This document shows, piece after piece, positions 7,252 through 32,659 of a DNA stretch of 32,826 nucleotides. The position numbers were made by a program, and so were the translations under genes. How positions within the stretch are numbered: the stretch's first letter is position 1; the number at the start of each line of letters is the position of its first letter. This DNA is from Anaerolineae bacterium (lineage in GTDB: Bacteria > Chloroflexota > Anaerolineae > Aggregatilineales > Phototrophicaceae): the NCBI GenBank assembly GCA_013360465.1, contig JABWBO010000041.1, positions 1 to 32,826 of the forward strand, in the 5' to 3' direction. The notes beneath the pieces were generated by a model. That model did no database searches and was not told the origin of the DNA. It saw only the letters and a list, made by a program, of their open reading frames with translations.

Positions 7252-9063
7252 TCAACTGCTCAACTTGGGTGTACGTCCCGCGTGAATATTGACATGACAG
7301 CCGTGACAGACCATGAGTGTTTTTCGCTGCATGGTTATCATGCGAATCACCCAACTCGGCTTGTCTTTTCTTCCTGCCCAACGCCGCTTGAGGTCGGAGA
7401 GTTTGCGGATGTGATGCACCTGCACTCGGTCGTGTGAGCCACAGAGTTCGCAGGTATCCGCTTTCAAGCGTTGGATAAGGTCGGAACGTACATTTGTCGT
7501 GTAGTATGTTTTCGCGTCGTTCAGAGGTTGGCTGAAGTTCTTGACCGTTTTCAAGGGAATAGCACCCCAGTAGATGTCGCGGGTGCCTTTTTGGGTTGGA
7601 ACTTCGATGTGCAATGTTTTGTAGCTGTACCCCTCTACCGTTTTTGTGCCACGATAACGACGGTAGATTTTGCTCACGCTGAGTTTGAATTTGTGCGCTA
7701 ATGTTTTGGCGAGCGACTGCTGCATAATGTGTTTCAAGCCTTGCAGGTGGCAGCGGTCTACCGCATAGCAGTAGTATTCTGCGATGCCGCGAAAGCGTGC
7801 CTGAAACAGGTCGATGATGTGCGCGTCAGAGTGCATGAGGATACCGGATTGGCTGATGGTTTTGCCCGCTCTCATGTAGTCGCGTGCGGCTTCGTTCACG
7901 AGTCCGTAGGGAATGCCTAGACGAACGTGTCCGTTGATGCTGCGGCGTTGAGCGAGCATGTGGGGATGCGCGGTGAGTTTGTCGTTTACCTGATAGATGC
8001 TGATGTCGTAGCCCAGAAATTTGGCTTTCTCACTGGTTGCGTGCGTGATGAGCGTTTTTGTTGAACTCAGTTCCAGTTTGAGACGGTCACGTAGAAATCC
8101 AGCGATGGCATCTCGGATGGCTTCGGCTTCTTTGCGTGTGCCGCAAAAGGCGATGATGAAGTCGTCAGCGTAGCGCACGTACTTCAGCCTTCTGAAGTTC
8201 GGGTCGTACATATCCCGCGACGGGATTTGGCGGCGTGTCTGTTCAAGTTGTTTCACTTGTTCAGTATCGCCAGCCGCTCGCGCTCGTTTGAGCAAATGCT
8301 CTAGTCGGCGGTATTCGGGATTGTGACGGCGTTCCTTGCCTCCGCGAGTGTACTGGGGTTTCAGTACCGTTTCGATGTAGTCGTCAAGCTCGTGAAGGTA
8401 GATGTTACTCAAAAGCGGGCTGAGGATACCGCCCTGCGGTGTTCCACTGTAGGTATCCTTGTATTCCCATTCTTCCAGTTTTCCCGCTTTCAACCCCTGC
8501 CGGATGAGATTGAGCATCCGTCCGTCTTGAATATCTCTGGACAAAATTTCCATCAGCACATCATGGTCGATGTTGTCAAAGCATCCTTTGATGTCGCCTT
8601 CAATGAACCACGCTGCTCCCCTGAAGCTCTGTTTAATCTGCTGTAATGCGGTGTGACAGCCGCGTCCCGGTCGATAACCATGTGAGCAGTCATGAAAACG
8701 CGGTTCGTAGTACGCATCCAGCAGCATTCGCAAAGCCTCTTGCACCAGCTTATCCACGAAGTCTGGCATACCGAGTTTACGGATTCCGCCTGACTTCTTA
8801 GGGATACCTGTACCGCGTGTTGGGCGGAACTTGAAGCGCTCGTGACGCATCTTGTCGATGGTATCCCGAACCACTTTCATGCTCATCCCGTCAGCGGTTT
8901 CTCCTTCTGACCCCGGTGTTAGCGCACCTGCATTTTTGTAGATTTTCGCGTAAGCACTGAGATACAACTCCTCACTGAACAGACTGCGATACACACGAGT
9001 GAGCGGTGTGCGCTTCACTCCCATGTTGTGCAGCGCTTGTAAAATAGGTTGGCTTGTCTGCAT
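7252..9063 (-). CDS. ltrA: Group II intron-encoded reverse transcriptase/maturase with HNH endonuclease
   Basis: A 603-aa multifunctional protein that helps splicing and drives retrohoming of the intron. The RT domain shows the GIPKKSGGIRKLGMP start, GDIKGCFDNIDHD, SGTPQGGILSPLLSNIYLHE and the catalytic YADD box. A maturase (X) domain follows, then a C-terminal HNH endonuclease with CELCG, VHHI and CHGCHVNIHAG zinc and active-site residues. No frameshift or stop is seen and all catalytic motifs are present, so the intron is plausibly still mobile. It starts with the ATG at 9063. The gene symbol is used in the generic sense for this family. Confidence 0.95.
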   Translation of the reverse strand: MQTSQPILQALHNMGVKRTPLTRVYRSLFSEELYLSAYAKIYKNAGALTPGSEGETADGMSMKVVRDTIDKMRHERFKFRPTRGTGIPKKSGGIRKLGMPDFVDKLVQEALRMLLDAYYEPRFHDCSHGYRPGRGCHTALQQIKQSFRGAAWFIEGDIKGCFDNIDHDVLMEILSRDIQDGRMLNLIRQGLKAGKLEEWEYKDTYSGTPQGGILSPLLSNIYLHELDDYIETVLKPQYTRGGKERRHNPEYRRLEHLLKRARAAGDTEQVKQLEQTRRQIPSRDMYDPNFRRLKYVRYADDFIIAFCGTRKEAEAIRDAIAGFLRDRLKLELSSTKTLITHATSEKAKFLGYDISIYQVNDKLTAHPHMLAQRRSINGHVRLGIPYGLVNEAARDYMRAGKTISQSGILMHSDAHIIDLFQARFRGIAEYYCYAVDRCHLQGLKHIMQQSLAKTLAHKFKLSVSKIYRRYRGTKTVEGYSYKTLHIEVPTQKGTRDIYWGAIPLKTVKNFSQPLNDAKTYYTTNVRSDLIQRLKADTCELCGSHDRVQVHHIRKLSDLKRRWAGRKDKPSWVIRMITMQRKTLMVCHGCHVNIHAGRTPKLSS

Positions 9064-17135: not shown

Positions 17136-18539
17136 TCACGATGAAGCGTCCAATGTAGCCAGTGCGTCCTGTGCATCGGTGTAGAGCGGATTTGCCTGGA
17201 GCGCTCGATTGAAAGAAGCACGCGCCTCGGATACCTGTCCCTGAGCAGCGTAAACCTGTCCTTGCCAGAAATAAGTTTCTTCGACATACGCACCGCCGTT
17301 GTTTAAATTGGAACTTACAAGCGCTGTTACATCGCTGTAGCGTCCAACAGTGAAATACGCTTCGTATGGACCAAACTGGTACCACATCATCCGCCAGGGC
17401 AAATCAAATCGCCGTGCTTGATCGTATGCAATTGCAGCCTCTTCATAACGCTCCAGCGAGAGAAGAGCGGTTCCCATATTGAACCAGGCAAAGCCGTTCC
17501 GAGGTTCCCTGCGCACTTCGTCCTGTGCGGTTTCAAGGGCAAGTTCTGCTGCACGTACAAGGTCGCCACGTTCGCCCAAAATTTCGGCGACACGCCCCTC
17601 ATTTTGAACTTCATACAAAACGATGAAACGTCGATTGAACTGCTGCCATGCGGTATCAAGCGCATCGTAGGATACAGCAATTCCCTCGCCATTCTGACCT
17701 GTACCCAGATAACTGTCATAAGCGAAAAACTGGCGCTGCGTGTCGTCGTATCCAACGATGGCACGGTAATGACCCAGCCAATCCTCACCTTCGGGTGCAT
17801 AACCAATCGACACGATCACGGGAAAGCCGTTAGTGATAAAGGCGCGTATGAATTCAAGCGTTCCGCCCATACGTGTAAGCGCGCGAACACCCGTCTGTTC
17901 ATTGACGAACTGCACCATTTCGCTGGGAGTGACGTTTTTGTCTTCTTCATCTGGCTTTAGAAACGAAGCCGCATAGACCTGATCCTCAGTCCAGCTAAAA
18001 TAACTCAAACCCATCGTGATGGTTGCCGGTCCACAGTTGTTCCACGTCTGGAAGACACCACGCAATCCGTAGATTCGTGCTGACGTCGGCAGCGAAAAAG
18101 CACTTTCGAGTGTTGCCGTCGGCACTACTTCAGGGGATGTCGTGGAGGGCATGAGGGTCGGCATCGCCGTAGCAGTCAGGGTGGGCAAAAGTGCGGACGT
18201 TGAAGTCGGCGCAAGTGTCGGTGTTGCGGTCGGACTTGTAGTCGGGGTTGGCGATGCAAGTGCAAAGCTCAATAAATCTTCTGGAGAAATTGCGCTGTTC
18301 TGAGGTAACGCGGTCGGAATGCGGGCATTCTCGTCCGCTCGATAAGGTAGAAACGACTCCATGAACGGCAGTACACCGATGATGCGCTGCTGCTGACCTG
18401 GACGCAGCACATTCTGGAAGATGAGCAGTCCAGCAGCAGCCCCAGCAATCATCAGTATGCAACCGCCTACTACTAGGACGATGAACCATCGTGGTGGCGG
18501 CTGGAGATCGGGCATGTCTATCTCTGGTGAGCGACTCAC
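17136..18539 (-). CDS. Membrane-anchored C39-like peptidase domain with TPR repeats
   Basis: A 467-aa protein. An N-terminal membrane anchor (VLVVGGCILMIAGAAAGLLI, residues about 22-41) is followed by a Thr/Pro/Ser-rich extracytoplasmic linker, a C39-like papain-fold domain with the Cys motif FQTWNNCGPATITMGLSYF, the His in WLGHYRAIVGYDD and Asp in FAYDSYLG, then TPR-like helices to the end. A peptidase role outside the membrane is likely, the substrate unknown. The first codon is GTG (18539), with GAGGAA about 11 nt upstream; the ATG at 18515 is an alternative and would still leave the anchor intact. Two palindromes and a TAAAAT -10 element lie upstream. It heads an operon with the FG-GAP gene. 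Confidence 0.82.
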   Translation of the reverse strand: MSRSPEIDMPDLQPPPRWFIVLVVGGCILMIAGAAAGLLIFQNVLRPGQQQRIIGVLPFMESFLPYRADENARIPTALPQNSAISPEDLLSFALASPTPTTSPTATPTLAPTSTSALLPTLTATAMPTLMPSTTSPEVVPTATLESAFSLPTSARIYGLRGVFQTWNNCGPATITMGLSYFSWTEDQVYAASFLKPDEEDKNVTPSEMVQFVNEQTGVRALTRMGGTLEFIRAFITNGFPVIVSIGYAPEGEDWLGHYRAIVGYDDTQRQFFAYDSYLGTGQNGEGIAVSYDALDTAWQQFNRRFIVLYEVQNEGRVAEILGERGDLVRAAELALETAQDEVRREPRNGFAWFNMGTALLSLERYEEAAIAYDQARRFDLPWRMMWYQFGPYEAYFTVGRYSDVTALVSSNLNNGGAYVEETYFWQGQVYAAQGQVSEARASFNRALQANPLYTDAQDALATLDASS

Positions 18540-18578: not shown

Positions 18579-18647
18579 ATTTTAGAGTTCAGACGCGCTC
18601 AGGCGAATGCGCCATTTAGCGGGAGAAATACACGCCAAACAGCGTAT
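18579..18647 (-). promoter_or_regulatory. Promoter of the C39/FG-GAP operon with two copper-locus palindromes
   Basis: On the minus strand CCGCTAAATGGCGCAT (18622-18607) lies with its GGCG end exactly 25 nt before the -10 hexamer TAAAAT (18584-18579). A second, weaker copy ATACGCTGTTTGGCGTGTAT (18647-18628) is 23 bp, about two helical turns, further upstream. The GTG start is 39 nt after the hexamer. Confidence 0.7.
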
Positions 18648-18669: not shown

Positions 18670-19719
18670 TTACGTTTTCAGAGGAAGATAAGCTGTTGGA
18701 TTGTGCTGAAATGCCCCTTGGCACACGGGGCAGCAGAAATAGTACCGTTCCCCCTCATAAACCGTACTGCCAAACGCCCGCTGCGGCTCAATGACCGCAC
18801 CGCAGACCGGATCGCGGACGTGCTCGGTCGGTTGCGCGACCTGATCTAGCGGCAGATCGACGCGGATGGTTGTGCCGACACCTGGAAAGCTGGTCACTCC
18901 AAGCCTGCCATGCAGATGTTCGACGCGCTCACGCATCCCTAACAGCCCAAAATGCTGCGCCTGTGCCAGTTCGTCCAGCGTATTGGGCGGTGTAAATCCA
19001 GCCCCATTATCATGAACGATGAGCGTCATGGTGTCTGGTTGAAAGTTCAGGTCAAGCTGTATCAGACCGGGCTGTGCGTGTTTTTCGGCATTACGCACCG
19101 CCTCTTGTGCGATGCGAAACAACGCCAGCTCCTGCGCTGCACTGATACGCCGCGCATTTCCGGTGACCTGAATTTCGAAATGCGCCGTATGCGGTTCATC
19201 CGCGAGCATCTGCAGCGCGGCGACGATACCTAGTTCCTCCAATGCCGGTGGACGCAGATCAGCGATCAGGCGGCGTAGACTTTGAACGTTCTCGACCGCC
19301 TGTGTGCGTGCCATTGTGAGCATTGCACGAGCGCGTTGTGGGTTAGTTTCGATCCAACTTGCAGCCAGTTCGATGCTCTGCGCGATAGCGACAAGCGACT
19401 GCACTGTATCGTCATGCAGCTCGTGAGCGATACGGGCGCGTTCCGCCTCCTGTCCGTCAGTGAGCGCGTGCCGATAGGTCAGCGCCTCCGCCTGGGCGCG
19501 CTGCACATGCCCCGCCATGCTTGCCATCGACTGCCGCAGATCAGCGATTTCACGGATGCCGCCGCACTGCTGTTCCAATGCAATCATATCGCCCTGCGTC
19601 AATCGCTCGGCACTCGCTGCCAGGCGGCGCACCGGACTCAGCACGCGCACGAACGCCCACAGGTTTACGGCGACTGACCCGACCAACAGCCCACCGAACA
19701 GCATGACGAATCGCTTCAT
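18670..19719 (-). CDS. Histidine kinase (NarX/LiaS-type) with a C-terminal YHS metal-binding domain
   Basis: A 349-aa sensor kinase of the HisKA_3 family. It has a single N-terminal membrane segment (residues about 5-26), a HAMP-like stretch, the H-box ERARIAHELHDD with the phosphoacceptor His102, and a HATPase domain (NAEKHA, VHDNGAGFT, GLLGMRERVEHL). No extracellular sensor is present. Instead residues about 303-345 form a YHS domain: DPVCGAVIEP, then YYFCCPVCQGAF and NPTAYL, with three or four Cys able to bind a metal. YHS domains occur in copper and heavy-metal ATPases, so cytoplasmic metal sensing is plausible (inference). Its ATG overlaps the regulator's stop (ATGA). Confidence 0.88.
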   Translation of the reverse strand: MKRFVMLFGGLLVGSVAVNLWAFVRVLSPVRRLAASAERLTQGDMIALEQQCGGIREIADLRQSMASMAGHVQRAQAEALTYRHALTDGQEAERARIAHELHDDTVQSLVAIAQSIELAASWIETNPQRARAMLTMARTQAVENVQSLRRLIADLRPPALEELGIVAALQMLADEPHTAHFEIQVTGNARRISAAQELALFRIAQEAVRNAEKHAQPGLIQLDLNFQPDTMTLIVHDNGAGFTPPNTLDELAQAQHFGLLGMRERVEHLHGRLGVTSFPGVGTTIRVDLPLDQVAQPTEHVRDPVCGAVIEPQRAFGSTVYEGERYYFCCPVCQGAFQHNPTAYLPLKT

Positions 19720-20357
19720 GACGATGCTCCATCGTTGAGTGTAATCAAGCCGCGCGTCAGTCCAGCGGTCACCGCTTCTGTGCGCGTCTTGACGCCCAAC
19801 TTCTGATAGATGTTTTGCAAATGCCCCTGCACCGTGCGATCCGAGATGAACAGCCGTCCACCTATCTCTTTGTTGGTCAACCCTAGTGCCGCACAGTGCA
19901 GGATCTCCATTTCACGATCCGTCAGCCCTTCGACGAGTTTTGGCACTTCCGTTTCGTGCCTTGCCGCTTTTGCCAGCACATCGGGATCGAACGCAGTTCG
20001 CCCCACCCCGACATCCTGAAGCGCGCGATAAAGCTGTGCCAGTTCCGCCGTCTTGAGGACGAACCCGTCCGCCCCAGCATCGATCAGCGCATGGACATAC
20101 GCAGGATCATCGTAGGCGGTCAGCACCAGCACGCGCACATTGGGGTTATCTAGGCGAATGCGTCGCGTCGCCTCGACCCCTGTCAGTTCTGGCATGTGAA
20201 TATCCATGACCACCACATCGGGCTGTAGATCGCGCGTTAGGCGTACTGCCTCTACACCATTGGTCGCTTCGCCGACGACTTCGATGCCCATGCTCTCCAG
20301 ATACATTCGCGTCCCCTGACGCACGATTTTGTGATCTTCAGCGAGCAAAACCCGCAT
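19716..20357 (-). CDS. NarL/LuxR-type response regulator
   Basis: A 213-aa regulator. The receiver domain starts MRVLLAEDHKIVRQG, has the phosphoacceptor Asp in VVVMDIHMPELTG and the conserved Thr and Lys in VLTAYDD and FVLKTAE. The C-terminal LuxR helix-turn-helix is LTDREMEILHCAALGLTNKEI with the recognition helix in ISDRTVQGHLQNIYQKLGV. The start is the ATG at 20357; in-frame sequence upstream lies inside the GDCCVxC gene, whose stop is 4 nt away. The stop overlaps the kinase start. It is the only DNA-binding regulator encoded in the copper region and hence the best local candidate to bind the palindromes, including the one in front of its own operon. Confidence 0.9.
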   Translation of the reverse strand: MRVLLAEDHKIVRQGTRMYLESMGIEVVGEATNGVEAVRLTRDLQPDVVVMDIHMPELTGVEATRRIRLDNPNVRVLVLTAYDDPAYVHALIDAGADGFVLKTAELAQLYRALQDVGVGRTAFDPDVLAKAARHETEVPKLVEGLTDREMEILHCAALGLTNKEIGGRLFISDRTVQGHLQNIYQKLGVKTRTEAVTAGLTRGLITLNDGASS

Positions 20358-20361
20358 TTGT

Positions 20362-20556
20362 CTATTCCGTTTCTGCCTGCATGGGTGGGCATTTGACACT
20401 ACCATACGAACAAAATACACAACAATCCCCGTGCGAAGGCTTGAGTAAAACTCCACAGTGAACACACTGATAAAAATACTGGCAGCAATCAGTGGGCATC
20501 GTCTCTTCTTTCATTCCTGCACACTGAGGACAAGTAATAACCGATTGAAGTTGCAT
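20362..20556 (-). CDS. GDCCVxC-domain small Cys-rich protein
   Basis: A 64-aa cytoplasmic protein with five cysteine clusters: CPQC, DCC, CVHC, GDCCVFC and a KCPP end. The GDCCVFCSYGSVKCPP stretch is the signature of the GDCCVxC family, some members of which are selenoproteins; here the positions are Cys codons. Members are found next to mercury, copper and other metal genes, and a metal-binding role is presumed but not shown. The ATG at 20556 is preceded by AAGGAGG, with a leader of only about a dozen nt if the -10 TAAAAT at 20580-20575 is right. It leads the operon with the response regulator and kinase, and faces the CopZ gene. Confidence 0.85.
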   Translation of the reverse strand: MQLQSVITCPQCAGMKEETMPTDCCQYFYQCVHCGVLLKPSHGDCCVFCSYGSVKCPPMQAETE

Positions 20557-20574: not shown

Positions 20575-20647
20575 ATTTTACAAGCATGAAGCCATCTCAA
20601 AATACCGCCAAATGGCGTATACGCTGAAACCTCGTCGGTGCTACGCT
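20575..20647. promoter_or_regulatory. Shared palindrome between divergent GDCCVxC and copZ promoters
   Basis: The best palindrome in the window, ATACCGCCAAATGGCGTAT, is at 20602-20620. Reading left, its CGCC half ends 25 nt before the minus-strand -10 TAAAAT (20580-20575). Reading right, its GGCG half ends 24 nt before TACGCT (20642-20647), a weak -10. One symmetrical site could therefore drive both directions. Confidence 0.7.
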
Positions 20648-20683: not shown

Positions 20684-20893
20684 GTGGAGACCAAAACGTT
20701 CAAGGTTCCGAACATGACATGCAACGGCTGCGTCAGCACCGTGCGCGGTGAACTCGAAGGCATTCCCGGCGTGGAAGTGCTGGACATCAACAAGCCGGGG
20801 CAGCTCGTCACCGTGCAGTGGAAGCAACCCGCCTCGTGGGACACCATCGAGCAGGCGCTGACCGCCATCGAGTACGCGCCCGCCGAGGCGTAA
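20684..20893 (+). CDS. copZ: CopZ-like HMA-domain copper chaperone
   Basis: A 69-aa single heavy-metal-associated domain with the metal-binding loop PNMTCNGCVSTV and the typical hydrophobic pattern to the end (DTIEQALTAIEY). It should carry Cu(I) in the cytoplasm to CopA, encoded convergently. The GTG start at 20684 is chosen because AAGGAG lies eight nt upstream and the domain begins right after; the ATG at 20612 would add 24 residues without HMA character and overlap the operator. It is the only convincing complete plus-strand gene in the window, transcribed from the shared palindrome. A 9-bp-stem terminator follows. Confidence 0.88.
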   Translation: METKTFKVPNMTCNGCVSTVRGELEGIPGVEVLDINKPGQLVTVQWKQPASWDTIEQALTAIEYAPAEA

Positions 20894-20962: not shown

Positions 20963-23509
20963 TTAGTCACCGACCGCGTTCACTGGCTTCAGCGCGGCTG
21001 GCTGAACCGCAGGTTCTGACTCCAGCTTTCGTCCCCGGAGGCGGAGACTGTTGCTTACAACGAAGATGGACGAAAAAGCCATCGCTGCAGCGGCAAGCAT
21101 CGGGATGAGCGTGCCCGCCATCGCCACGGGGATAAGGATGATGTTGTAGATGAACGCCCAGAACAGGTTCTGGTAGATCGTTCGCATGGTCGCCCGACTC
21201 AGGCTGACCGCCCGCGCTACACCGCGCAAATCGCCGCTCACCAGCGTCACATCCGAGGCTTCGATTGCGATGTCCGTTCCCGTGCCGATGGCAATCCCCA
21301 CATCTGCCTGCGCCAGAGCCGGTGCGTCATTGATGCCGTCACCTACCATTGCGACGCGCTTTCCCTCACCTTGCAGCCGCTTGACCATCTCCGCTTTCTG
21401 ATCAGGCAGCACGTCCGCCAGCACGCGCGTGATGCCCACCTCGCGGGCAATCGCCTGTGCAGTCTTTTCATTGTCGCCCGTGATCATCACAACTTCGAGA
21501 CCCTGCGCCCGCAGCGCGGCGACGGCTTCGCGTGATCCATCCTTCACCGTATCAGCAATACCGAGGATGCCCGACAGTACGCCATCGATGACCGTCAGCA
21601 CGGCAGTGCGCGCCCGTCCTTGCAGCGCTTCGATCTGCCCGGTATATGCGGTTAGATCGTGTCCCTGTTCACGGATGAAGCGCGGGCTGCCGACAAAAAC
21701 GGTTCTGCCTTCGACTGTTGCACGCACGCCGCGCCCAGACTCCGCCTCGAACGCTTCCGGCTGCGTCAGCTTAAGATCACGCGCCGCCGCCGCCGCGACC
21801 ACCGCCTGTCCCAATGGGTGTTCACTACCTCGCTCGGCAATCGCGGTCAGACGCAGCACCTCATTCTCATGACAACCGTTCAGCGCGATGACATCCGTTA
21901 CGCTCGGTTCACCGCGCGTGATCGTCCCGGTTTTATCCAGTGCCACGACCTGCACGCGCTTGGCGCTCTCCAGCGCTTCGCTGTTTTTGAACAGCACACC
22001 CATTTCTGCCCCACGTCCTGTGCCAACCATAATCGCCGTCGGGGTCGCCAAACCCAGCGCGCATGGGCAGGCGATCACCAGCACGGCGACCGCATTGACC
22101 AGCGCTGCCGTGAAGCCAACTTGCCCAATTACCAGCCAGCCGATGAAGGTCAGCACTGCCAGGACAAGCACAATCGGCACGAACACGCCCGACACCTGAT
22201 CGGCGACGCGCTGAATCGGCGCTTTCGACCCCTGCGCCTGTTCCACCAGCCGGACAATCTGCGCCAGCGCGGTTTCTGCGCCAACGCGCTGCGCCTCGAT
22301 CACAAGCCGACCCTGTTTGTTGATGGTCGCGCCGATCACCTCACTGCCTGTTTCTTTGTTGACGGGCAAGCTTTCACCTGTCAGCATGGACTCATCGACC
22401 GATGACCGCCCAGTGACGACCAACCCATCGACGGGGATACGCTCACCAGGGCGCACGACCAGTTGATCGCCTACGACAACATCATCGATGGCAACCTCGA
22501 CCTCATCACCATTCCACAGCAACGTCGCGGTTTTCGGTGCCAGACCGAGCAACTTCTTGATCGCCTCGCTGGTGCGCCCTTTGGCGCGGGCTTCCAGCAG
22601 CTTACCGAGTGTAATCAGCGTGAGGATCACGGCAGCCGTCTCAAAATAGACATGCGCGCCGACCGCACTATATCCCACAACCATGCCGATCAGTACGACG
22701 ATACTGTACAGGTATGCCGCCCATGAGCCGAGCGCGATCAGCGTGTCCATACCCGTTGTGCCGTTGCGTGCTGACTTCCATGCACCAACGGTGTATTGCC
22801 GCCCGACGATGAGCTGTACCGGGGTTGCCAGCAGCAGGAAGCCAAACGGCCAACCCGACCAGAGCAGCCAGTTCAGCGCCGGGTTGGGACCTGCCATCGC
22901 GCCGGAGAGCATCATCTCTGCCATATCCATACCCGCGAAACTCGCCATGTACAGATCACGCCCCATGCTCAGGATGAACAGGGGAATGGTGAACGCCGCA
23001 CCAATCAGCACCATATGTCGCTGACGGTCGATTTCTGCCTGACGCGCGGCACGTTCGGCATCTTCCGGCGCTTCGGCGGATGAGAGATCAACCACGCCGT
23101 ACCCCGCGCTCTCGACCGCCCTGATTAGGTCTCCACGCCGCACTGCATTCGGCAGGTATTGCACGGTCGCGCGTTCGGTCGCCAGATTGACCGCCACCTC
23201 CAGCACGCCAGGCTGTTTGCCAATTGCACGTTCGACGTTGCGCACGCACGATGCACAGGTCATGCCAGTGATAGGAAGTTCAATCGCAGCGGTCGCCACC
23301 CCATACCCCGCATTCTTGACACGCTCGATGATCTGAGGAACGCTCACCGTCTGTGGATCGAACTGAACGCTGGCGCGTTCGGTTGCCAGGTTGACGCTCG
23401 CCCCATCTACGCCTTCCGTTTTGGTCAGCGCGCGTTCGACATTACGCACACAGCTTGCACAGGTCATGCCTGTGATGGGGAGTTCAATTTGCCTAATTGC
23501 TTCTGTCAT
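20963..23509 (-). CDS. copA: Copper-exporting P1B-1 ATPase CopA
   Basis: An 848-aa membrane ATPase that exports Cu(I) from the cytoplasm. Two N-terminal HMA domains each have [16 protein letters not shown]. Eight membrane segments are expected, with the CPC motif in [14 protein letters not shown]. The phosphorylation site is [11 protein letters not shown], the nucleotide domain has [10 protein letters not shown], and the hinge is [10 protein letters not shown]; the C-terminal membrane pair SLRLRGR region is present. Length is normal for CopA. The ATG at 23509 has GAGGA seven nt upstream. It has its own palindrome promoter at 23542-23586, downstream of the multicopper oxidase terminator, so it is a separate transcription unit. 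Confidence 0.96.
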
Positions 23510-23541: not shown

Positions 23542-23586
23542 ACGATACGACAGTCCTGAGCGTCGGGTACGCGCTAAATGGCGTAT
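23542..23586 (-). promoter_or_regulatory. copA promoter with copper-locus palindrome
   Basis: On the minus strand ATACGCCATTTAGCGC (23586-23571) lies with its AGCG half ending 24 nt before TATCGT (23547-23542), a plausible -10. The start codon is 32 nt after the hexamer. The palindrome's second half is imperfect (AGCG for GGCG). Confidence 0.65.
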
Positions 23587-23684: not shown

Positions 23685-26108
23685 TTACTCAACGATGTTG
23701 ACAACGAGTGTGAGTCCTCCCGGTTCTTCCCCATCATTGGTGACGTGATGCAGAATGTGGCAATGTACCGCCCACATTCCCGGCTCGGTGGCGACAAACT
23801 CAATGTCATAGCGTTCACCCGGTGCAACTGCCACGGTATCTTTTGTAAGTTGCGCCACATCCGGGACAGGGTGTCCATCGGTAGCGACGATCTGGAAGGA
23901 TGTGCCATGCGTGTGCATGGGATGGACAAATTGCCCTGCATTGATGAAACGGATGCGAACCCGCTGCCCTACCTGAACGTTGATCGTTTCTGTTGCCGGG
24001 AAAGCTCTGCCATTGATCGTGAAATAGTTTGGTTCTGCTCCTGCCATCGGCATGGATGGATAAGTGAGTCCATCCACGACGCGCCACTCGGAGAGCATCA
24101 GCGTGACATCGACATCAGGTAGTACCGTTTCTGGTTGCACAGGATCAATGATCAGGGGGGCGTACAATCCCAATCCGATTTGGGTATCGGTATTCAGGTG
24201 CGAATGATACCAGAACGTGCCGCTGGGACTCGCAATGAATTCGTAGACGAACGTTTCGCCGGGTTCAACTGGATTTTGAGTGACGTTCGGAACGCCATCC
24301 ATCACGTTTGACAATGTGTTGCCGTGAAAGTGAACTGTTGTTGCTTCGGGAAGCTCGTTGGTGAACACAACCCGGACGCGATCCCCTTCCGTTACCCGAA
24401 TCATTGGTCCCGGGACGGTACCGTTGTACGTCCATGCAGTAACAGAAACATCGTCGAGGATGTTCCACAATACGGGACGCGCGGTGATTTCAAACACCTT
24501 CACACCATCTTCGAGCGTAAACTCCAGCGGTTGTCCGCCTATGGAGTCCGTAGCAGCGGGTACACCTTCGCTGCTGATAGGCATCATATCGTGACCGCCA
24601 GCCCCCATGTCCATACCTTCACCACTTTGCCCAGAGTGGTCATCCATATCCGACATCATGCCGCGCATCTGCTGCATCATCGACATCATGTCGTCGGACA
24701 TCTCCATGCTCATCATTTCGTCCATCAGGTTCATCATGGGCTGCATCATGGTGGACATGTCCATGCCGCCCATCATATCCGCCATACCACCACCCGACAT
24801 CATGCTCATCATCATATCCATCATGCCGCGCATCCGCTGCATCATCGGCATCATGTCGGTGGACATCTCCATGCCCATCAGGTCGTTCATCAGGCCCATC
24901 ATAGTCTGCATCATGGCTGACATATCCATGCCGCCCATATCCATTTGCCCCATTGTGGACTCGGTTATCGCTGGTACAACCGTTGGGGTGACTTCACTGG
25001 CAGGGTGATGTGCGTCATGGTCTTCCTCAATCCCCTGATCGAGCGCCAATGCGATCTGGGGCTGTTGGGCAGAAACCGCAGGCAGCGGTGAGAAACTAAT
25101 TCCATTCGGGCTGTCCCCGGTTGTGACACGGGCGACAATTTCCAGAGTTGACAGGTCGATTACGGCAACATCGTCACCATAAATGTTGGCGATATAAGCG
25201 TAGCGCCCGGACGGCTCAATGACGACTCCATGCGCCCCTTGTCCGGTTTCAAGAGTCTCCACGACCGCGAAGGTTGCTACGTCGATAATCGAAACCGTCG
25301 TGCTAGGGTTTTCCGCTGTACCTTGATTGGCAGCGAGTACATAGCGATTATCAGGCGTGACATAAACTTGGATAGGCCCTTCGCCGATTTCGACAGTGCT
25401 AACCAGCGATTGGGAAGCAACATCGACTTTGCCAACCGCGTTTTCGCCGTTGAGCGAGAAATACACATATTCACCACTCGGATCAAACGCGACCTGAACG
25501 GGACGTTCGCCAACTTCGATGTTGGTGACACGCTCGTTCGTCGTCGTGTCGATCACGCTTAACGTGGTATCACTGGCATTCGCCACGTAAATCCAAAGGC
25601 CATCGGGGCTGGGACGAAGCCCATGTGGAAACTCGCCAACCGGAATAGTCGTAATCACCTCTTTGGTGGCAGCATCGATGACGGTTACGCTGTTCTCGCC
25701 TCCGTTGGTGACGTAGACTGTACCACCATCAGGGGATACGATAATATGGGCAGGATGCTCTCCGGTAGGCGTCGTCCCAAGAACTGTATAGGTACGAGCA
25801 TCAATCTGTACTGCCGTATTGTCGTGCCCGCTTACTACCCAGACGGTTGCGCCATCGGGGGACACTTGAAGATTGTGCGGACCTTCAATCCCCGTGAGCG
25901 TCGTGACGACTTCATTCGTGCTGGCGTTGATGACGGTGATGCTGTTTCCATTTTCGTCTGCAACCCAGATCGTTCCCTGAATCGGTAAGCTCTGTGCCCC
26001 AACAGTGAGAGGTTGACGCAGACCGAAGACAAGCGTAATTAAAGCAACCAGAACTGCCGATTGGCGTAGAAACCTGTTGCCCATGATTAACCCAACTGCC
26101 TTTCCCAT
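23685..26108 (-). CDS. YVTN propeller / Met-rich linker / two-domain multicopper oxidase fusion
   Basis: An 807-aa exported protein. A signal peptide (RQSAVLVALITLVFGL, cut near VGAQS) is followed by seven YVTN-type propeller repeats (about residues 45-345, each ending like VIDAATKEVITTIPVG). A linker at about 385-509 contains some 51 Met plus Asp and His, including two 120-bp-encoded copies. The C-terminal oxidase (about 525-807) has all copper motifs: HFHGN, WYHSHL, HPMHTHGTSF and HCHILHH, in two cupredoxin domains. It probably oxidises Cu(I) outside the membrane. The ATG at 26108 lacks a ribosome site; the ATG at 26084 gives a cleaner signal peptide. No clear promoter is seen, so it may be read through from the copB operon. 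A terminator follows. Confidence 0.9.
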   Translation of the reverse strand: MGKAVGLIMGNRFLRQSAVLVALITLVFGLRQPLTVGAQSLPIQGTIWVADENGNSITVINASTNEVVTTLTGIEGPHNLQVSPDGATVWVVSGHDNTAVQIDARTYTVLGTTPTGEHPAHIIVSPDGGTVYVTNGGENSVTVIDAATKEVITTIPVGEFPHGLRPSPDGLWIYVANASDTTLSVIDTTTNERVTNIEVGERPVQVAFDPSGEYVYFSLNGENAVGKVDVASQSLVSTVEIGEGPIQVYVTPDNRYVLAANQGTAENPSTTVSIIDVATFAVVETLETGQGAHGVVIEPSGRYAYIANIYGDDVAVIDLSTLEIVARVTTGDSPNGISFSPLPAVSAQQPQIALALDQGIEEDHDAHHPASEVTPTVVPAITESTMGQMDMGGMDMSAMMQTMMGLMNDLMGMEMSTDMMPMMQRMRGMMDMMMSMMSGGGMADMMGGMDMSTMMQPMMNLMDEMMSMEMSDDMMSMMQQMRGMMSDMDDHSGQSGEGMDMGAGGHDMMPISSEGVPAATDSIGGQPLEFTLEDGVKVFEITARPVLWNILDDVSVTAWTYNGTVPGPMIRVTEGDRVRVVFTNELPEATTVHFHGNTLSNVMDGVPNVTQNPVEPGETFVYEFIASPSGTFWYHSHLNTDTQIGLGLYAPLIIDPVQPETVLPDVDVTLMLSEWRVVDGLTYPSMPMAGAEPNYFTINGRAFPATETINVQVGQRVRIRFINAGQFVHPMHTHGTSFQIVATDGHPVPDVAQLTKDTVAVAPGERYDIEFVATEPGMWAVHCHILHHVTNDGEEPGGLTLVVNIVE
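24654..24938 (-). repeat. Two 120-bp repeats encoding the Met-rich copper-binding linker
   Basis: The segments 24654-24773 and 24819-24938 are near-identical direct repeats with a 165-bp period. Each encodes a 40-residue unit running MGGMDMS.MMQ..M through MEMS.DMM to RMRGMM or QMRGMM. It is an in-gene duplication that doubled the number of Met ligands. Confidence 0.88.
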
Positions 26109-26500: not shown

Positions 26501-27448
26501 CTACTCCCCTCCAATGCCATCATTTGCGATTTGTGTCCATGCCCCATCCCCAAACAATACAAAAATATCTTTCTCATTTGTGGCTGCTGCCATTTGACCT
26601 GACGTGGGACTATCAGCAACATAGATCAGTGCGTCATTATTTGCCAGCGGCGGCGTGAGCAGCGGTGTATTCTCCCCAGTAGCAAGATCAAGTCGATAAA
26701 GCTGTCGATAACCGAAGTAAAGCCTGTTTGCATCAAGATCGAACACAACCGCTGTTACTGGCTCAGATGTAAACACAGGGGTAAATGTGTTTCCGTAATC
26801 CGTTGATAGCCACAAACCATCTTCGGTCGCAACCGCCACCGTACCAAGTTCGTCAGGGTGTACAGCGATTTGTATTGGACTGCTCTCCAATCCCGCCGCC
26901 TGGCTTTGCTGCCATGTTTGCCCCTCATCAAGGGTATAAAACATACCTACCCCTAATTGAGAATTCGGCGATTGGTTGATGACATAGACTGCATGATTGC
27001 GATAACCGGCGGCGAGCAGATGAAAGTCACTTTCGCCTTCGAAAATGAGTGTCGTAATCGTGCGTCCGCCATCCTCGCTCTTGATCAAGCCTAAGAGCGG
27101 TTCGTAATCTGTGCGTAGATCGGGATGACCACTGCTAAAGAAGCCGCTATCAATAGGAGAAAATCCCATGTAATCGTGAGCGGGTAAATCCGGCTGTGAC
27201 CATTGGTTATTCTCGTACACCAGCAGCCCAATGTGTGCGGGGACGAGCAAGCGACTTCCATCAGACGAAAATCCCAAGCCGTGAATATGCGGTATTTCTA
27301 CCCGTACCGCTCCACTTGTACCGTCCTGTTGACGGGCGTTCAGTAGAACAAAAACACCTATTACAGCGCCGATCAAACAAATCGCGCCGATGACCAGATG
27401 CCGTCTCGTTATCACAATCCCATCTGATGGACTTTGTTTTTTCTTCAC
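26501..27448 (-). CDS. F510_1955-family BNR/sortilin-like beta-propeller protein
   Basis: A 315-aa protein with one N-terminal membrane anchor (VIGAICLIGAVIGVFVLL) and an outside domain that starts with the family signature HIHGLGFSSDGSRLLVPAHIGL. BNR-like blades follow (SEDGGRT, LDEGQTW, STDYGNTF). The family is annotated as glycosylhydrolase-like, but no catalytic residues are evident to me and it may simply bind a partner. The GTG start at 27448 has AGAGGA five nt upstream and lies 9 nt after the cytochrome stop. It is part of the copB-YceI-cytochrome operon. Confidence 0.8.
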   Translation of the reverse strand: MKKKQSPSDGIVITRRHLVIGAICLIGAVIGVFVLLNARQQDGTSGAVRVEIPHIHGLGFSSDGSRLLVPAHIGLLVYENNQWSQPDLPAHDYMGFSPIDSGFFSSGHPDLRTDYEPLLGLIKSEDGGRTITTLIFEGESDFHLLAAGYRNHAVYVINQSPNSQLGVGMFYTLDEGQTWQQSQAAGLESSPIQIAVHPDELGTVAVATEDGLWLSTDYGNTFTPVFTSEPVTAVVFDLDANRLYFGYRQLYRLDLATGENTPLLTPPLANNDALIYVADSPTSGQMAAATNEKDIFVLFGDGAWTQIANDGIGGE

Positions 27449-27457
27449 TGAATTCCT

Positions 27458-27985
27458 CTATTTACCATTGACCTCGTATTCAGCATCCAATTCGGCACGA
27501 CGCTGTGTCACCTGTGCCTGCCACGCCCGTTGGTCATCCGTCCACCACAGGCTCATATAGGCGATGAGCTGATCGATCTCCGTCTCTGTAACCACCCCCT
27601 CAAAAGGTGGCATGGGATAATGTTCGAGTGGGTTCTGGATGCCGTTCAAAACCACCAGTTCTATCAACTGGCTGGGATGCTGCCAGGTATGTCCGGTCGC
27701 ATCGTGAGGAGGCACAGTATGCAGCCCAAGCTGCTCTGTATTGGGCACAGTCGAAAGAAGTTGTCCTTCCCCTGCGTAGCCATGACAGTGCGCGCACCGC
27801 AGGTTGTACACCGTTTGACCCGTCACTAAGTTTTGGTCAGCGGCGATCATAGCGGCACGCTCTGGCGAGTCGGTCGGACGCACAGCGACGACGGGCGGTT
27901 CGCTGCTGGTTTGGCAGCCAGCGAGGATGATCATCACGGCTGCAAGCAGGAACATGAGCAGACGAGGAAGCTGCATCATCGTCAT
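27458..27985 (-). CDS. c-type cytochrome lipoprotein
   Basis: A 175-aa exported lipoprotein. The N-terminus MMQLPRLLMFLLAAVMIILAG ends in the lipobox LAGC. The heme motif is CAHCH, followed by GYAGEG; an axial Met is likely in HYPMPPFEG. The conserved PPHDATGHTWQHPSQL segment is shared with the two other cytochromes at 31.3-32.2 kb, so all three are paralogues. The likely start is the ATG at 27985, one base after the YceI stop; the ATGs at 27979 and 27976 are alternatives. It probably carries electrons on the outer face of the membrane, possibly for the oxidase or the terminal oxidases. Confidence 0.88.
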   Translation of the reverse strand: MTMMQLPRLLMFLLAAVMIILAGCQTSSEPPVVAVRPTDSPERAAMIAADQNLVTGQTVYNLRCAHCHGYAGEGQLLSTVPNTEQLGLHTVPPHDATGHTWQHPSQLIELVVLNGIQNPLEHYPMPPFEGVVTETEIDQLIAYMSLWWTDDQRAWQAQVTQRRAELDAEYEVNGK

Positions 27986-27986
27986 C

Positions 27987-28877
27987 TCAGGATGCAACCG
28001 CGCGTGCAACAAAATCGAACTCCAGCCGTACCTGTTCAGCAACACCGTGATAGGCGAGCATATCGTCGTCGAGAATGCCGAAATCACTGCGGTTGACAAA
28101 CGCGGTTGCCTCACCACGTATTTCCTCAGCACTGCCCAACGTCATCCGAACAGTGAAGGTCACCGGGCGCGTTACCCCGCGCAGCGAGAGATTACCCGTC
28201 ACCTGCAAATCGACTGTCTGACCGAGAGACACCTGGGTTGGTAACCCCGTAACCGAGGTGGGGACGAATTCGGTGAACTCATAGGCATCCTGAGCCGTAA
28301 GCAGAACACAGCAGCGGATCGAGTTGTCACGATCGGGGTCGTCGGTTCGCAGCGTGCGCAGGTTGATGCGAATGACCCCAAGCTGAGAATTCGCCGGATT
28401 CGCAAAGTCGATGATGAAGTCGCCCGCGATCTGATTGGTTGTGCCAACTGCTGTCTGTGGCGGGATCGTTTCATCGACCGCGAAACGAACAACCGACTCA
28501 CTGGTCGAGATACGAAAGAGCTGGCGAGCCAGCACAACCGGCACTGCCGTTGGCATGGCGACGCTCGACATCGCCGCCATATCATGGGTTGCACTGGGAA
28601 CGACGCTCGCCGTTGTCGGTGCGGTAGTAGGTTGAACCGTCGACACAACGGCGGCGGTAGTGGGTACTATGGTCAGGCTGTCCAGTGATAACGTGGGCGC
28701 GCTGATGGGTGCGCTGGGTTGGTCATTCGACCCGGTTACACGGATGAACACGAATACACCACCCACACCCCCAATGACAGCGCCAATCAGCATCCCTGCC
28801 AGAAAAACACCAACGATGATGGGCATCAGTTTTCGAGCAGGACTGACGCTGTTATAGTTGCCTTCGAATCGTGCCAC
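27987..28877 (-). CDS. YceI-domain protein, membrane-anchored
   Basis: A 296-aa protein with one N-terminal membrane segment (IIVGVFLAGMLIGAVIGGVGG), a Ser/Thr/Pro-rich linker, and a YceI lipocalin-like beta-barrel domain from about residue 115 (ISTSESVVRFAVDETI through GNLSLRGVTRPVTFTVRM and FGILDDD). YceI proteins bind isoprenoid or quinone-like lipids. The domain usually takes part in stress responses in the periplasm or cell envelope; here its place next to copB and cytochromes suggests a link to electron carriers. The GTG start at 28877 has AGGAG seven nt upstream. It lies 33 nt after copB. Confidence 0.88.
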   Translation of the reverse strand: MARFEGNYNSVSPARKLMPIIVGVFLAGMLIGAVIGGVGGVFVFIRVTGSNDQPSAPISAPTLSLDSLTIVPTTAAVVSTVQPTTAPTTASVVPSATHDMAAMSSVAMPTAVPVVLARQLFRISTSESVVRFAVDETIPPQTAVGTTNQIAGDFIIDFANPANSQLGVIRINLRTLRTDDPDRDNSIRCCVLLTAQDAYEFTEFVPTSVTGLPTQVSLGQTVDLQVTGNLSLRGVTRPVTFTVRMTLGSAEEIRGEATAFVNRSDFGILDDDMLAYHGVAEQVRLEFDFVARAVAS

Positions 28878-28910
28878 GCTGAGACTCCTGTACCAGATTG
28901 GATTCCGACT

Positions 28911-31178
28911 TTAAACCGCCGCTAAATCGAGGCGGCGTAAGAGTTGCGCGTTGAACGCGACCACGATGGTGCTGACCGACATGAATACCGCGCCAATCGC
29001 CGGGTCGAGTGTGATACCAAACGGTGCAAGCACCCCCATCGCCAGCGGGATTGCCACGATGTTGTAGCCCGTCGCCCACACCAAGTTCTGAATCATCTTG
29101 CTGTAGGTGGCGCGGCTCAACCGGATAATCTTGACGATATCTATCGGGTTCGAGCGCACCAGGATGATCCCTGCACTTTCGATGGCGACATCCGTTCCCG
29201 CGCCGATGGCAATGCCGACATCAGCCGTCAGGAGCGCGGGCGCGTCGTTCACACCATCGCCCACCATCGCCACTTTACTGCCACCTTTTTGCAGTTCACG
29301 CACTTTGTCGGCTTTGTGTTCGGGCAACACCTGGGCGAAATAGGTGTCGATGTTCAGTGCTTGTGCGACTGCTCGCGCGACAGATTCACTGTCGCCGGTT
29401 AGCATAGCTACTTTCAAGCCCAGATCGTGCAGCTTCCGGACGGCTTCACGGCTTTCCTCGCGGATCACGTCGGCGATAGCGAACAGCGCCAGAATTGCTT
29501 TGTCGTTCGTCAGGTAGATGACCGATTGCCCGGCGTTCTCCGCATTCGACTTTGCGATTTCGAGCGACGTGGGTACGCGCAGGTTGAGCTGCTCCAGCAA
29601 GCGCGGGCCACCGATAGAGTAGGTCACACCATCGACGACGGCTTTCACACCGCGCCCGGCGATGCTCTCGAAACGGCTGACCGACGCAGGAGTAATACCG
29701 CGTTCCTTTACGTAAGTCCGAATCGCTTCCGCAATCATATGTTCGCTGTCGCCTTCCAGTCCGGCGGCGATCCGCAGCGCATCCGCTTCGGCGATGCCAT
29801 CGACGGCAACCTGCACCACGCCCTGTTCGCCTTTGGTCAGGGTTCCGGTCTTGTCGAAGATGATGATGTTCAGGTCTTTGGCGCTCTCCAGCGCGATTCG
29901 CTGGCGCACGAGCAAGCCGTTCCGCGCTGACAGCGTGGTCGAGATCGCCACGACCAGCGGTACAGCGAGACCGAGCGCGTGCGGGCAGGCAATCACCAGT
30001 ACCGTCACCATGTTCTTGACCGCTTCAGCCAGACTGCCTGTGAACACCAGCCAGCCGATAAAGGTGAGTGCGCCCGCCGCCAACGCGATGATCGTCAGGT
30101 AGAAGGCGGCGCGCTGTGCCAGCGTCTGCGCCCGCGACTGGCTTTTCTGTGCATCCTCGACCAGCCGCATGATACCTGCCAGCGCCGTGCCTTCGCCGAC
30201 CTGCTGTACCGTGACGCGCAGCGAACCCGATTCGTTGACCGTGCCGCCAATCACCCCGTCACCAAGCTTTTTATCCACCGGGCGGCTTTCGCCTGTGATC
30301 ATCGCCTCGTTGACACTGCTTTCGCCTTCGGCAACCGTCCCGTCGGCGGGGATGCTTGCGCCCGGGCGGATGAGCAGACGGTCACCAATCTGAAGCTGCG
30401 ACACATTTACAGTTTCCGTCGCGCCGGATGGCAGCAGACGTTCGGCGGTGTCGGGCAGCAGTTTCGCCAGTTCGCGCAGCGCGCCCTGCGCCTGACCAAC
30501 GCTGCGAAGTTCGATCCAGTGACCGAGCAGCATGACCGTGATGAGCGTCGCCAGTTCCCAAAAGAAATCCATCATCGGCATGGACGTCACCCCTGCCATG
30601 CCCATCGTTTCGCCGGGCGGGAACAGGAATATGCCGACGCTGTACAGGAAGGCCGCCGTGATCGCCACCGAAATCAGCGTCATCATGCCCGGCTGACGCC
30701 CCGTCAGTTCCTGCCGCGCCATGCTCAGGAAGGGCAGCCCGCCATAGAAGAAAATGAACGACCCCAGTATCGGCGCGATCAGGCTGCTGCCCGGAAATTC
30801 GGGCATGGTGAAACCGAGCCACGCCTGCACCATTGGCGAATACAGGACGACGATGATCGTGAGCGGCAGCACGACGAAGAAGCGGTTACGCATCATCGTC
30901 GCGTGGCCTTCGTGCATCACACCATGTCCGGTGTGATCGCCGTGTCTTGCGTGTGCGTCGTGCTTGCCTTGTTCGGCGTGCATCTCGTGCGCTGTCTGAT
31001 CCGGCTCTGGTTTGAGGAGTTCGCTGGCGCGATAGCTGCTGTCGTGGGCAGCATGTTCCGCCGGGTCAGCCGACGGCGTGTGTGCGCTATGACGGGCATG
31101 GTCGGCGCGGGCGGCATCACCGTCCATTGCAGGCGGCATGTCATGCGCTGTGTCATCTTTATGCTGTGGGTCTTTCAT
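28911..31178 (-). CDS. copB: P1B-type copper ATPase with CPH motif and His-rich N-terminus (CopB)
   Basis: A 755-aa ATPase. The first 100 residues are rich in His, Asp and Met ([19 protein letters not shown]) in place of HMA domains, and the membrane motif is [10 protein letters not shown] (CPH), both typical of CopB (P1B-3). [21 protein letters not shown] and the usual membrane segments are present. In the nucleotide-binding HP motif SEHP is replaced by SEHM, a variant to note. The ATG at 31178 (AAGGAG seven nt upstream) is preferred; 31181 is possible, and the in-frame start at 31196 lies ahead of the ribosome site. Promoter palindrome at 31251-31266. It leads an operon with YceI, a cytochrome, the BNR protein and the MCMFC protein. 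Confidence 0.93.
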
Positions 31179-31220
31179 CATCAGGCTCCTTAACACTCCT
31201 GCTCTTCGGCTTCACTTTTC

Positions 31221-31266
31221 AGTGTAGGCACGATGCAGAATGAATCGGATGCGCTGAATGGCGTGA
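31221..31266 (-). promoter_or_regulatory. copB promoter with copper-locus palindrome
   Basis: On the minus strand TCACGCCATTCAGCGC (31266-31251) has its AGCG half ending exactly 25 nt before TACACT (31226-31221), a plausible -10. The palindrome is the least perfect of the set. It begins 8 nt from the stop of the cytochrome gene upstream. Confidence 0.65.
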
Positions 31267-31273
31267 AATCCAT

Positions 31274-31765
31274 TCAACCACCGGGATTGATTTGCAGCGG
31301 GTTGGACTCTCGTTCCCCTTCTGCGGCTGTCACCTGCATCTGGCGCGTAAGCTGTTCGTCGTTCCAAAAGGTTTTGATGTACGCCAGCGTGAGCATGATC
31401 TGTTCGTCGGTGATCTGTTCGCCGAAAGCAGGCATCGGATACCAGTTAGTCGGGTCGGTCAGGCTCATACCGCCGTTCCGTACATACTCGACCAGCATTG
31501 CGTCGCCGTGATGCCAAGTATGACCGTTTCCATTGTGCGGGGGCGCACCAAAGCGCCCAGTCGCGTCACGCTCAGTCGGAGCATTTGGAAACTGCCCTTC
31601 ACCATTCACCCCGTGACACGAAGCGCAATACTGCGCGTAGAGCTGCTGCCCCTGCGCGATCTGCTCGGCGTTGAGCGTCGTGCCGCTGACGACAATGACG
31701 TCACGCTGGCTGGAACAGCCGACGAACAGCAGTGCCAACAGCACTATCAAACTCAGTTTCGCCAT
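31274..31765 (-). CDS. c-type cytochrome lipoprotein (paralogue 2)
   Basis: A 163-aa lipoprotein with signal and lipobox LLALLFVGC. The heme motif is CASCH followed by GVNGEG, an NGNGHTWHHGD segment is shared with its neighbour, and the axial Met is in WYPMPAFG. Closely related to the cytochrome at 31787-32209, so the pair is a tandem duplication. The ATG at 31765 lies 21 nt after the preceding stop and has AAGGAGGAATG just upstream (on the minus strand). It ends the rhodanese operon; the copB promoter follows directly. Confidence 0.9.
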   Translation of the reverse strand: MAKLSLIVLLALLFVGCSSQRDVIVVSGTTLNAEQIAQGQQLYAQYCASCHGVNGEGQFPNAPTERDATGRFGAPPHNGNGHTWHHGDAMLVEYVRNGGMSLTDPTNWYPMPAFGEQITDEQIMLTLAYIKTFWNDEQLTRQMQVTAAEGERESNPLQINPGG

Positions 31766-31786
31766 ATCAATGCCATTCCTCCTTTT

Positions 31787-32209
31787 TCAAGGACGCTCAT
31801 GCCATATCGTCTTGATGTATGCAATGATCCGGGCAATCTCTTGATCGGACAGTTGATCGCCAAACGCAGGCATCGGATAGTACAGTGCTGGGTTTCGCAG
31901 GCTGATGCCGCCGTCTCGCACATACGCAATCAACCAGTCGTCCGGGTGATGCGAGGTATGACCATATCCATTGTGCGGCGGTGCGCCAAAACGCCCGGTC
32001 TCATCCGGCAGCAGCGGAAAATCCGCGAACTGCCCTTCGCCATTTGCACCATGACAGGACGCACAATACTGCGCGTAGAGCTGCCGCCCCTGCGCGATCT
32101 GCGCCTCGTCAAACACCACACCGCTGACGGTGATGGTGGCGCTCTGGCTTCCGCAGCCCACCAGCAGCACGCTTAGCAACCCTGCCAGAAGGGAGGTTCT
32201 CAGCCTCAT
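31787..32209 (-). CDS. c-type cytochrome lipoprotein (paralogue 1)
   Basis: A 140-aa lipoprotein with lipobox LLSVLLVGC. The heme motif CASCH is followed by GANGEG, and the axial Met is in YYPMPAFG. The start is the ATG at 32209, which overlaps the rhodanese stop (ATGA); a frame open further upstream lies inside the rhodanese gene. Electron transfer on the membrane's outer face is likely. Its tandem paralogue follows. Confidence 0.9.
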   Translation of the reverse strand: MRLRTSLLAGLLSVLLVGCGSQSATITVSGVVFDEAQIAQGRQLYAQYCASCHGANGEGQFADFPLLPDETGRFGAPPHNGYGHTSHHPDDWLIAYVRDGGISLRNPALYYPMPAFGDQLSDQEIARIIAYIKTIWHERP

Positions 32210-32634: not shown

Positions 32635-32659
32635 CACACCCTCCAGCATTTATCGGCGA

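Follow-up and report, generated by a model that had tools for sequence, protein, structure and literature searches.

To our knowledge, the known copper two-component systems measure copper in the periplasm or outside the cell. Cytosolic copper is usually read by one-component regulators. E. coli CusS, P. aeruginosa CopS and other copper systems are of the HisKA/OmpR class, and DesK/DesR, LiaS/VraS and NarX, which are built on a HisKA_3 core, answer other signals. Copper is bound on the periplasmic side by E. coli CusS and P. aeruginosa CopS (PMC7763554). The closest described case that we compared, CopSR of C. glutamicum, pairs a HisKA kinase, in which two transmembrane helices flank a small outside region, with the OmpR-type CopR, which activates its own and a divergent promoter (PMC3353115).

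We found one published parallel for a signalling enzyme with a YHS domain at its extreme C-terminus, the class III adenylyl cyclase of M. phlei. That cyclase was stimulated sixfold by 1-10 uM Cu2+ with Mn2+; with Mg2+, Cu2+ turned it on, whereas Zn, Fe, Cr, Co and Ni did not, and EDTA abolished the effect (PMC4626032). The same text describes one Asp and three Cys as the proposed ligands of YHS/TRASH domains (PMC4626032). What appears to be new at the locus described here is a NarL-type two-component system with a YHS module, which we read as a copper sensor.

The window, meaning the whole stretch of DNA that was analysed (32,826 nucleotides; contig JABWBO010000041.1 of the Anaerolineae bacterium assembly GCA_013360465.1), encodes a sensor histidine kinase of 349 amino acids on the minus strand (18670-19719). 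We characterized this kinase by Pfam, hydropathy, key residues and an alignment of 24 kinases, comprising the window and 23 of 26 family loci (L003, L017 and L025 were omitted as a near-copy or fragments). A membrane helix (residues about 4-24) is followed by a HAMP-like region (25-73), the HisKA_3 domain (93-160; 59 bits), the HATPase_c domain (197-292; 49.9 bits) and the YHS domain (301-346; PF04945, 42.8 bits, E 5e-11, cut-off 30.3). The HisKA_3 and HATPase_c matches were likewise above their cut-offs, and the HAMP match was below its own (18.2 of 25 bits). Pfam therefore bears out the sequence-only reading of a HisKA_3 kinase with a C-terminal YHS domain. Residues H102, D103, Q107, N210, D237, G239 and G241 were invariant in the 24 aligned kinases; they supply the H-box with its phospho-accepting His and DxxxQ, the N box and the G boxes of a HisKA_3 kinase. 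The core of the kinase model (pLDDT 80.9, pTM 0.57) had DesK as its best PDB match (E 2.6e-12). DesK/DesR, LiaS/VraS and NarX share this HisKA_3 core and fold as well as NarL/LuxR regulators, but those that were matched have no YHS domain.

Hydropathy identified a single hydrophobic stretch in the kinase (19-residue windows starting between residues 4 and 12), and N-terminal hydrophobicity was visible across the whole alignment, in which the starts were set by script. Because this stretch is the only one and lies at the extreme N-terminus, the kinase has no extracytoplasmic domain, and the arrangement of CusS and CopS, an extracytoplasmic sensor between two transmembrane helices, is not found. 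The earlier claim that an extracellular sensor is missing thus holds, yet a membrane helix and a HAMP-like linker are present, and on this basis the kinase is probably membrane-anchored with a cytoplasmic input.

The cognate partner of the kinase is a NarL/LuxR-type response regulator (19716-20357, minus strand; Response_reg 102.7 bits, GerE 69.5 bits by Pfam). Its output domain is GerE/LuxR and not the OmpR-type winged helix of CusR and CopR. The HisKA_3 kinase, the NarL-type regulator and the cytoplasmic YHS domain also set the pair apart from C. glutamicum CopS and CopR and from E. coli CusS and P. aeruginosa CopS. The stop codon of the regulator overlaps the ATG of the kinase, and in 23 of 26 family loci the gene immediately upstream of the kinase encodes this regulator; a contig end cuts the remaining three. 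A GDCCVxC protein of 64 amino acids (20362-20556, minus strand; NF041374, 95.8 bits, cut-off 40) is encoded first, its gene ending 4 nt before the regulator start. Given the overlap and the 4-nt gap, the three genes look like one operon, as had been proposed for the GDCCVxC gene from the letters alone. Only 4 of 26 family loci contain a GDCCVxC gene, as does L062, a locus from the same genus, and it then lies between the HMA gene and the regulator gene; we found no mention of GDCCVxC in the open-access literature.

The YHS domain of the kinase (18682-18819, minus strand) is the sole YHS match in the whole genome assembly. D303, P304, V305 and C306 as well as Y326-C333 (YYFCCPVC) were invariant in all 24 aligned kinases, and D303, C306, C329 and C333 fit the proposed ligand set of one Asp and three Cys. 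The second Cys of the FCC motif, C330, is additional to this set and could give the module redox reactivity. It was present in 75 of 77 rows found by the motif script, many of which repeat one gene, the two exceptions being the single gene of genome G613. Its equivalent occurred in 6 of 24 other YHS stretches from 20 loci sampled from the class, one of them a helix-turn-helix (HTH)-YHS protein discussed below. The AlphaFold model of the domain had a mean pLDDT of 96.9, and Foldseek placed it near toluene/phenol hydroxylases and ribosomal L24e at E-values of 0.05 or worse. By these weak fold-search values, SilP, toluene monooxygenase, archaeal L24e and standalone YHS proteins share the same small domain and predicted fold, but in them it is not fused to a histidine kinase or an HTH, unlike here. 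The kinase and the M. phlei cyclase both have one Asp and three Cys, and the linker before YHS is 8 aa in the cyclase, while HATPase_c ends at residue 292 and YHS starts at 301 in the kinase. The cyclase makes cAMP and, in the sections considered, has no described operator or regulon, whereas the kinase has a dedicated regulator, the extra Cys of FCCPVC and a predicted operator and regulon; Cu2+ activation in the cyclase is matched here by a copper neighbourhood (PMC4626032).

The kinase also contains a juxtamembrane Cys, C52 (window 19564-19566), in a CGGI motif. Of the YHS-kinase rows that span this part of the protein, counted with near-copies, 26 of 31 have it, and none of the 10 YHS-less rows does; rows L017, L025, L062 and L027-L029 could not be scored. 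C52 may be a partner of the YHS module or a mark of the lineage.

Divergent from the two-component operon is a gene for a small HMA (CopZ-like) protein (20684-20893, plus strand; Pfam), the start of which was inferred from homologues. Beside it is a gene for a CopA-like copper P-type ATPase (20963-23509, minus strand; Pfam and family matches). A setting beside exporters and oxidases is shared with CusRS, CopRS and CopSR. A C39-peptidase-like/TPR membrane protein (17136-18539, minus strand; Pfam) is a possible regulon member, and in L062 a protein judged by reading to look similar follows the kinase behind a site of its own. Further away, a rhodanese-like protein (32206-32649, minus strand) is the first gene of a cluster with cytochrome c and a second copper ATPase (26501-32649). 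At 23685-26108, a YncE-like beta-propeller is fused to multicopper oxidase domains through a very Met-rich linker (MMQTMMGLMNDLMGMEM...). A group II intron reverse transcriptase that also carries maturase and HNH domains is encoded at 7252-9063; this stretch, with a helicase and a methyltransferase-like frame alongside, may be a mobile element beside the copper cluster.

By site comparison, we identified a palindrome, CGCCAAATGGCG (20606-20617), between the two divergent operons. A predicted -10 box of the two-component operon, TAAAAT, is located 25 nt from it (20575-20580, minus strand), and a predicted -10 box of the HMA gene, TACGCT, 24 nt from it (20642-20647, plus strand). Operator-like sites with one mismatch were found ahead of CopA (23572-23583; TATCGT 24 nt on) and ahead of the C39/TPR gene (18610-18621; TAAAAT 25 nt on). 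An exact site, CGCCATTTGGCG, precedes the rhodanese cluster (32691-32702), with CATAAT as the candidate -10 box 25 nt on. Only two-mismatch sites lie ahead of the multicopper oxidase and the second ATPase of the window. The sequence-only reading had given the two-component operon its own palindrome; the palindrome was confirmed, but it does not belong to this operon in particular, being common to several copper genes here. The same dyad was present in the HMA/two-component intergenic space of most loci.

The family loci, 276 kb in all, contained 38 exact copies of CGCCAWWTGGCG, spread over 21 of the 27 loci, whereas the 24 control loci (seven short sisters, three long-sensor loci and 14 others; 252 kb) contained one. 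The lone control site lies ahead of the sister regulator in L060 and has a -10 box. Adding the window brought the number of exact sites to 40 in 309 kb; 20 first-order shuffles averaged 0.45 and never exceeded 3. Allowing at most one mismatch gave 70 sites, of which 46 near gene starts, taken as 48 oriented pairs, revealed a -10-like hexamer 24 nt past the dyad. On both sides of the 40 exact sites, TANNNT was found on 44 of 80 flanks at 24 nt and 13 of 80 at 25 nt, with 4 or fewer at any other offset from 10 to 44. At least one side carried TANNNT at 24-25 nt in 37 of 40 exact sites, compared with 0 of 23 background sites (Fisher p 2.8e-14). The CGCCATTTGGCG site is among the three that fail this rule, as CATAAT does not fit TANNNT. 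The background sites were chosen from the places listed in the own genome (3), YHS-negative family genomes (15) and YHS-positive family genomes (5); the kinase contigs of YHS-positive genomes, two places close to a contig end or start and the L060 site were excluded.

If the hexamer is a -10 box at -12 to -7, the dyad would be centred near -42.5. Class II activators sit near this position. The palindrome is thus a shared promoter element, placed as for an activator, of the copZ-like, copA and two-component genes. One operator recurring at constant spacing before copper genes is what a regulon calls for, and the regulator would be the protein that binds it. The own genome contained seven exact 12-mer sites, two of them in the window and three others in or at genes that look unrelated on reading and without a -10 box. 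The number of 12-mers per genome did not track the kinase (2-22 in YHS-positive and 1-14 in YHS-negative genomes), and the operator string was absent from the open-access literature.

A scan of named bacterial and archaeal genomes yielded 43 loci. In 26 of these (L002-L026 and L035) the same kinase carries YHS at its C-terminus, and the record titles of all 26 name Anaerolineae, Anaerolinea, Anaerolineaceae, Aggregatilineales or Chloroflexi. Using a profile of the ATPase-YHS junction, which is tuned to HisKA_3-type kinases and for which 11-48 first-look candidates per genome were scored in the large samples, we found the fusion in 27 of 98 genomes of the GTDB family of the window, at 35 places. 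In the class sample it was found in 6 of 396 genomes including the own one, all from the family of the window and one cut by a contig end. A phylum sample of 301 genomes added only G613, whose kinase (L104) has the canonical FCSPAC motif and no membrane helix; no tested copper gene and no operator were found within 12 kb of it. In samples taken from the phyla to which Paraburkholderia, Paenibacillus and Nitrospira belong, the fusion was found in 0 of 349, 0 of 199 and 0 of 148 genomes in a search run without a positive control; a single match in the Nitrospira-phylum sample (1 of 148) was a 66-aa frame matching the YHS part only and was rejected. Reading of the longer YHS frames from the rest of the class (L117, L133 and L134) indicated that they are not kinases.

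Relatives of the kinase occurred in 943 records of a plasmid collection, all below 60% identity, and no YHS kinase was annotated among the 15 matches listed. A plasmid search with the YHS domain only matched 2983 records, and 34 of the 40 matches listed were SilP. No HTH-YHS fusion was annotated among the 10 matches listed, of 1094, when the HTH-YHS protein was searched against plasmid and viral collections, and viral contigs gave no matches. We found no joint mention of a YHS domain and a histidine kinase in the open-access literature, a corpus that leaves most subscription papers outside; the one paper there that names both a TRASH domain and a histidine kinase does so in unrelated passages. 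The fusion is therefore a conserved, narrow family. The earlier reading had named a frequent and already characterised architecture as an alternative outcome, and in the sampled genomes and the open-access literature the fusion is neither.

The suggested search for the HATPase and YHS pair and its surroundings also gave a consistent neighbourhood. By tblastn with the proteins of the window, 22 of 26 loci had one or more copper-type neighbours (HMA, CopA/B, multicopper oxidase, cytochrome c or propeller), and three of the other four are cut by a contig end. HMA relatives were found in 19 of 26 loci and a copper ATPase in 12 of 26. The same test on seven YHS-less sister systems with short kinases found the regulator in 7 of 7 and copper-type neighbours in 0 of 7. 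On the tree, the YHS label requires three changes, which is compatible with a single or a repeated origin of YHS in the kinases and with either loss or primary absence in the sisters. A third branch has a long kinase of 468-469 aa with an apparent outside sensor, and two of its loci (L061 and L063) lie beside a multicopper oxidase. The own genome also carries a long-sensor two-component pair of this wider family (L068, contig C244), next to a His/Met-rich protein that we take to resemble DUF305. With such a kinase in the own genome as well, some genomes may sense external as well as internal copper.

The sister systems also bear on what binds the operator. Ahead of their own regulators, the site was exact in L060, where the dyad was flagged by script, and diverged in L055, L057, L058 and L067, where it was seen by eye; no recognisable site was found in L056 and L059. 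The recognition helices of the sister regulators are similar (SDRTVQVHLQ and SDRTVQGHLQ). Since five of seven sisters keep an exact or diverged site together with a similar recognition helix, the NarL-type regulator is the likely binder of CGCCAWWTGGCG.

Several relatives point to the YHS domain as the input. In L062 the YHS-kinase frame lacks the membrane and HAMP region, an absence that could also reflect a broken gene or an assembly fault, and L104 has no membrane helix. Genome G011, of the same genus, has no YHS kinase by the junction profile but contains a frame of at most 147 aa (L135:2348-2791) in which a LuxR-type HTH (GerE 69.4 bits) is joined directly to YHS (38.1 bits), the only recognised input domain. 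Its gene and an HMA gene point away from each other, separated by an exact CGCCAAATGGCG; a -10 box is present at 25 nt on the HMA side, and none at 24 or 25 nt on the HTH-YHS side. The product is an apparent one-component regulator. In another family (f40; L126-L128), separate YHS genes follow a regulator-kinase pair with a long kinase on the same strand, with a small frame between kinase and YHS in L126 and L127 (that of L127 matches no Pfam family). On account of the kinases without a helix, the HTH-YHS protein, the standalone YHS genes and the M. phlei cyclase, the YHS domain is likely the input of the kinase. Going further, we put at somewhat better than even the idea that YHS is a portable cytoplasmic copper-input module in Anaerolineae, carried by NarL-type kinases, anchored as well as membrane-free, and in one genome of the same genus by a LuxR-type HTH, both at the same operator beside a copper chaperone gene.

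We consider it probable that the locus encodes a copper-responsive two-component system in which a cytoplasmic YHS sensor controls a NarL-type copper regulon. Under this proposal, excess cytosolic copper would bind YHS through D303, C306, C329 and C333, possibly with the extra C330, and the copper-bound domain would reposition the adjoining ATPase domain in the kinase dimer. This would shift the balance from phosphatase, for which the D103xxxQ107 motif is present, to kinase. A shift away from phosphatase has also been proposed for P. aeruginosa CopS (PMC7763554). The phosphorylated regulator would then bind CGCCAWWTGGCG near -42.5 and activate its own operon, the CopZ-like chaperone and CopA, and probably also the rhodanese/cytochrome/ATPase cluster. 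The architecture, its conservation, the copper neighbourhood and the spacing of operator and promoter are read directly from sequence, and from these comparisons we infer that the regulator binds the operator, that YHS binds metal, that the signal is copper and which way the switch turns. Cytoplasmic copper sensing, as first suggested from the window, gains comparative support from the Cys and Asp positions, the copper neighbours, the membrane-free relatives, the HTH-YHS protein at the same site and the published copper-activated cyclase (PMC4626032); metal binding, the identity of the metal and the direct control of autophosphorylation suggested with it have the standing of predictions. Copper is preferred over another metal because of the copper neighbours and the M. 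phlei cyclase. As a counterpoint, the kinase and regulator persist in the YHS-less sisters with a similar operator kept. The lack of tested copper genes and of an operator around L104, the missing -10 box on the HTH-YHS side in G011, the possible gene fault in L062, the 12-mer counts per genome, the potentially redox-reactive C330 and the two-mismatch sites at the oxidase and the second ATPase also weigh against the proposal.

The YHS domain could instead receive a signal other than copper, such as another soft metal (Ag or Hg) or thiol redox through the vicinal C329-C330, which would suit the near-constant C330 of the family compared with its minority occurrence elsewhere in the class, the SilP silver ATPases that make up most of the plasmid YHS matches listed, and the cytochromes c in many family loci. 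We regard this as unlikely, given that the neighbours are copper genes (a CopA-like ATPase, a CopZ-like protein and multicopper oxidases) and that the sole tested YHS sensor answered Cu2+ with the metal selectivity and EDTA effect noted above (PMC4626032). It is also conceivable that YHS does no more than bind zinc structurally or soak up copper, with the signal entering through the membrane helix and HAMP region (C52) or through a partner, the HMA protein or GDCCVxC. The distribution of C52, frequent with YHS and absent without it, would fit such a route. However, the membrane helix is absent from L062 and L104 and the HAMP region from L062, YHS is the only input domain recognised in the HTH-YHS protein and GDCCVxC occurs in few of the family loci, which makes this quite improbable in our view.

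Whether the operator answers to this regulator at all has to be weighed as well. Sites lie ahead of many genes, and in L014 a frame that looks CsoR-like from its sequence lies beside CopA, so that a CsoR-type repressor, for example, could own the operator while the two-component system controls something else. A centre near -42.5 at fixed spacing fits an activator replacing the -35 element and not a repressor. The site precedes the regulator operon in many loci and, exact or diverged, the regulators of five of seven YHS-less sisters without copper genes, and the HTH-YHS gene adjoins the same site. We therefore give ownership by another regulator very little credence. In L014 the CsoR-like frame (near 1285-1650) is divergent from CopA and overlaps the operator, and double copper control is possible in that locus.

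If YHS is indeed a portable cytoplasmic copper-input module, the two-component systems described here would form a class of their own, tuned to copper in the cytosol and not in the periplasm, with a one-component regulator to match. A kinase that reads cytosolic copper through a module behind its ATPase domain would be gated in a different way, from its catalytic side. Natural comparisons exist within the family, with and without YHS, with and without a membrane helix, and with YHS placed directly on a DNA-binding domain, and the family provides a testable copper-gene operator for bacteria known mostly from metagenomes. The widespread and little-tested YHS domain would thereby gain a clear function.
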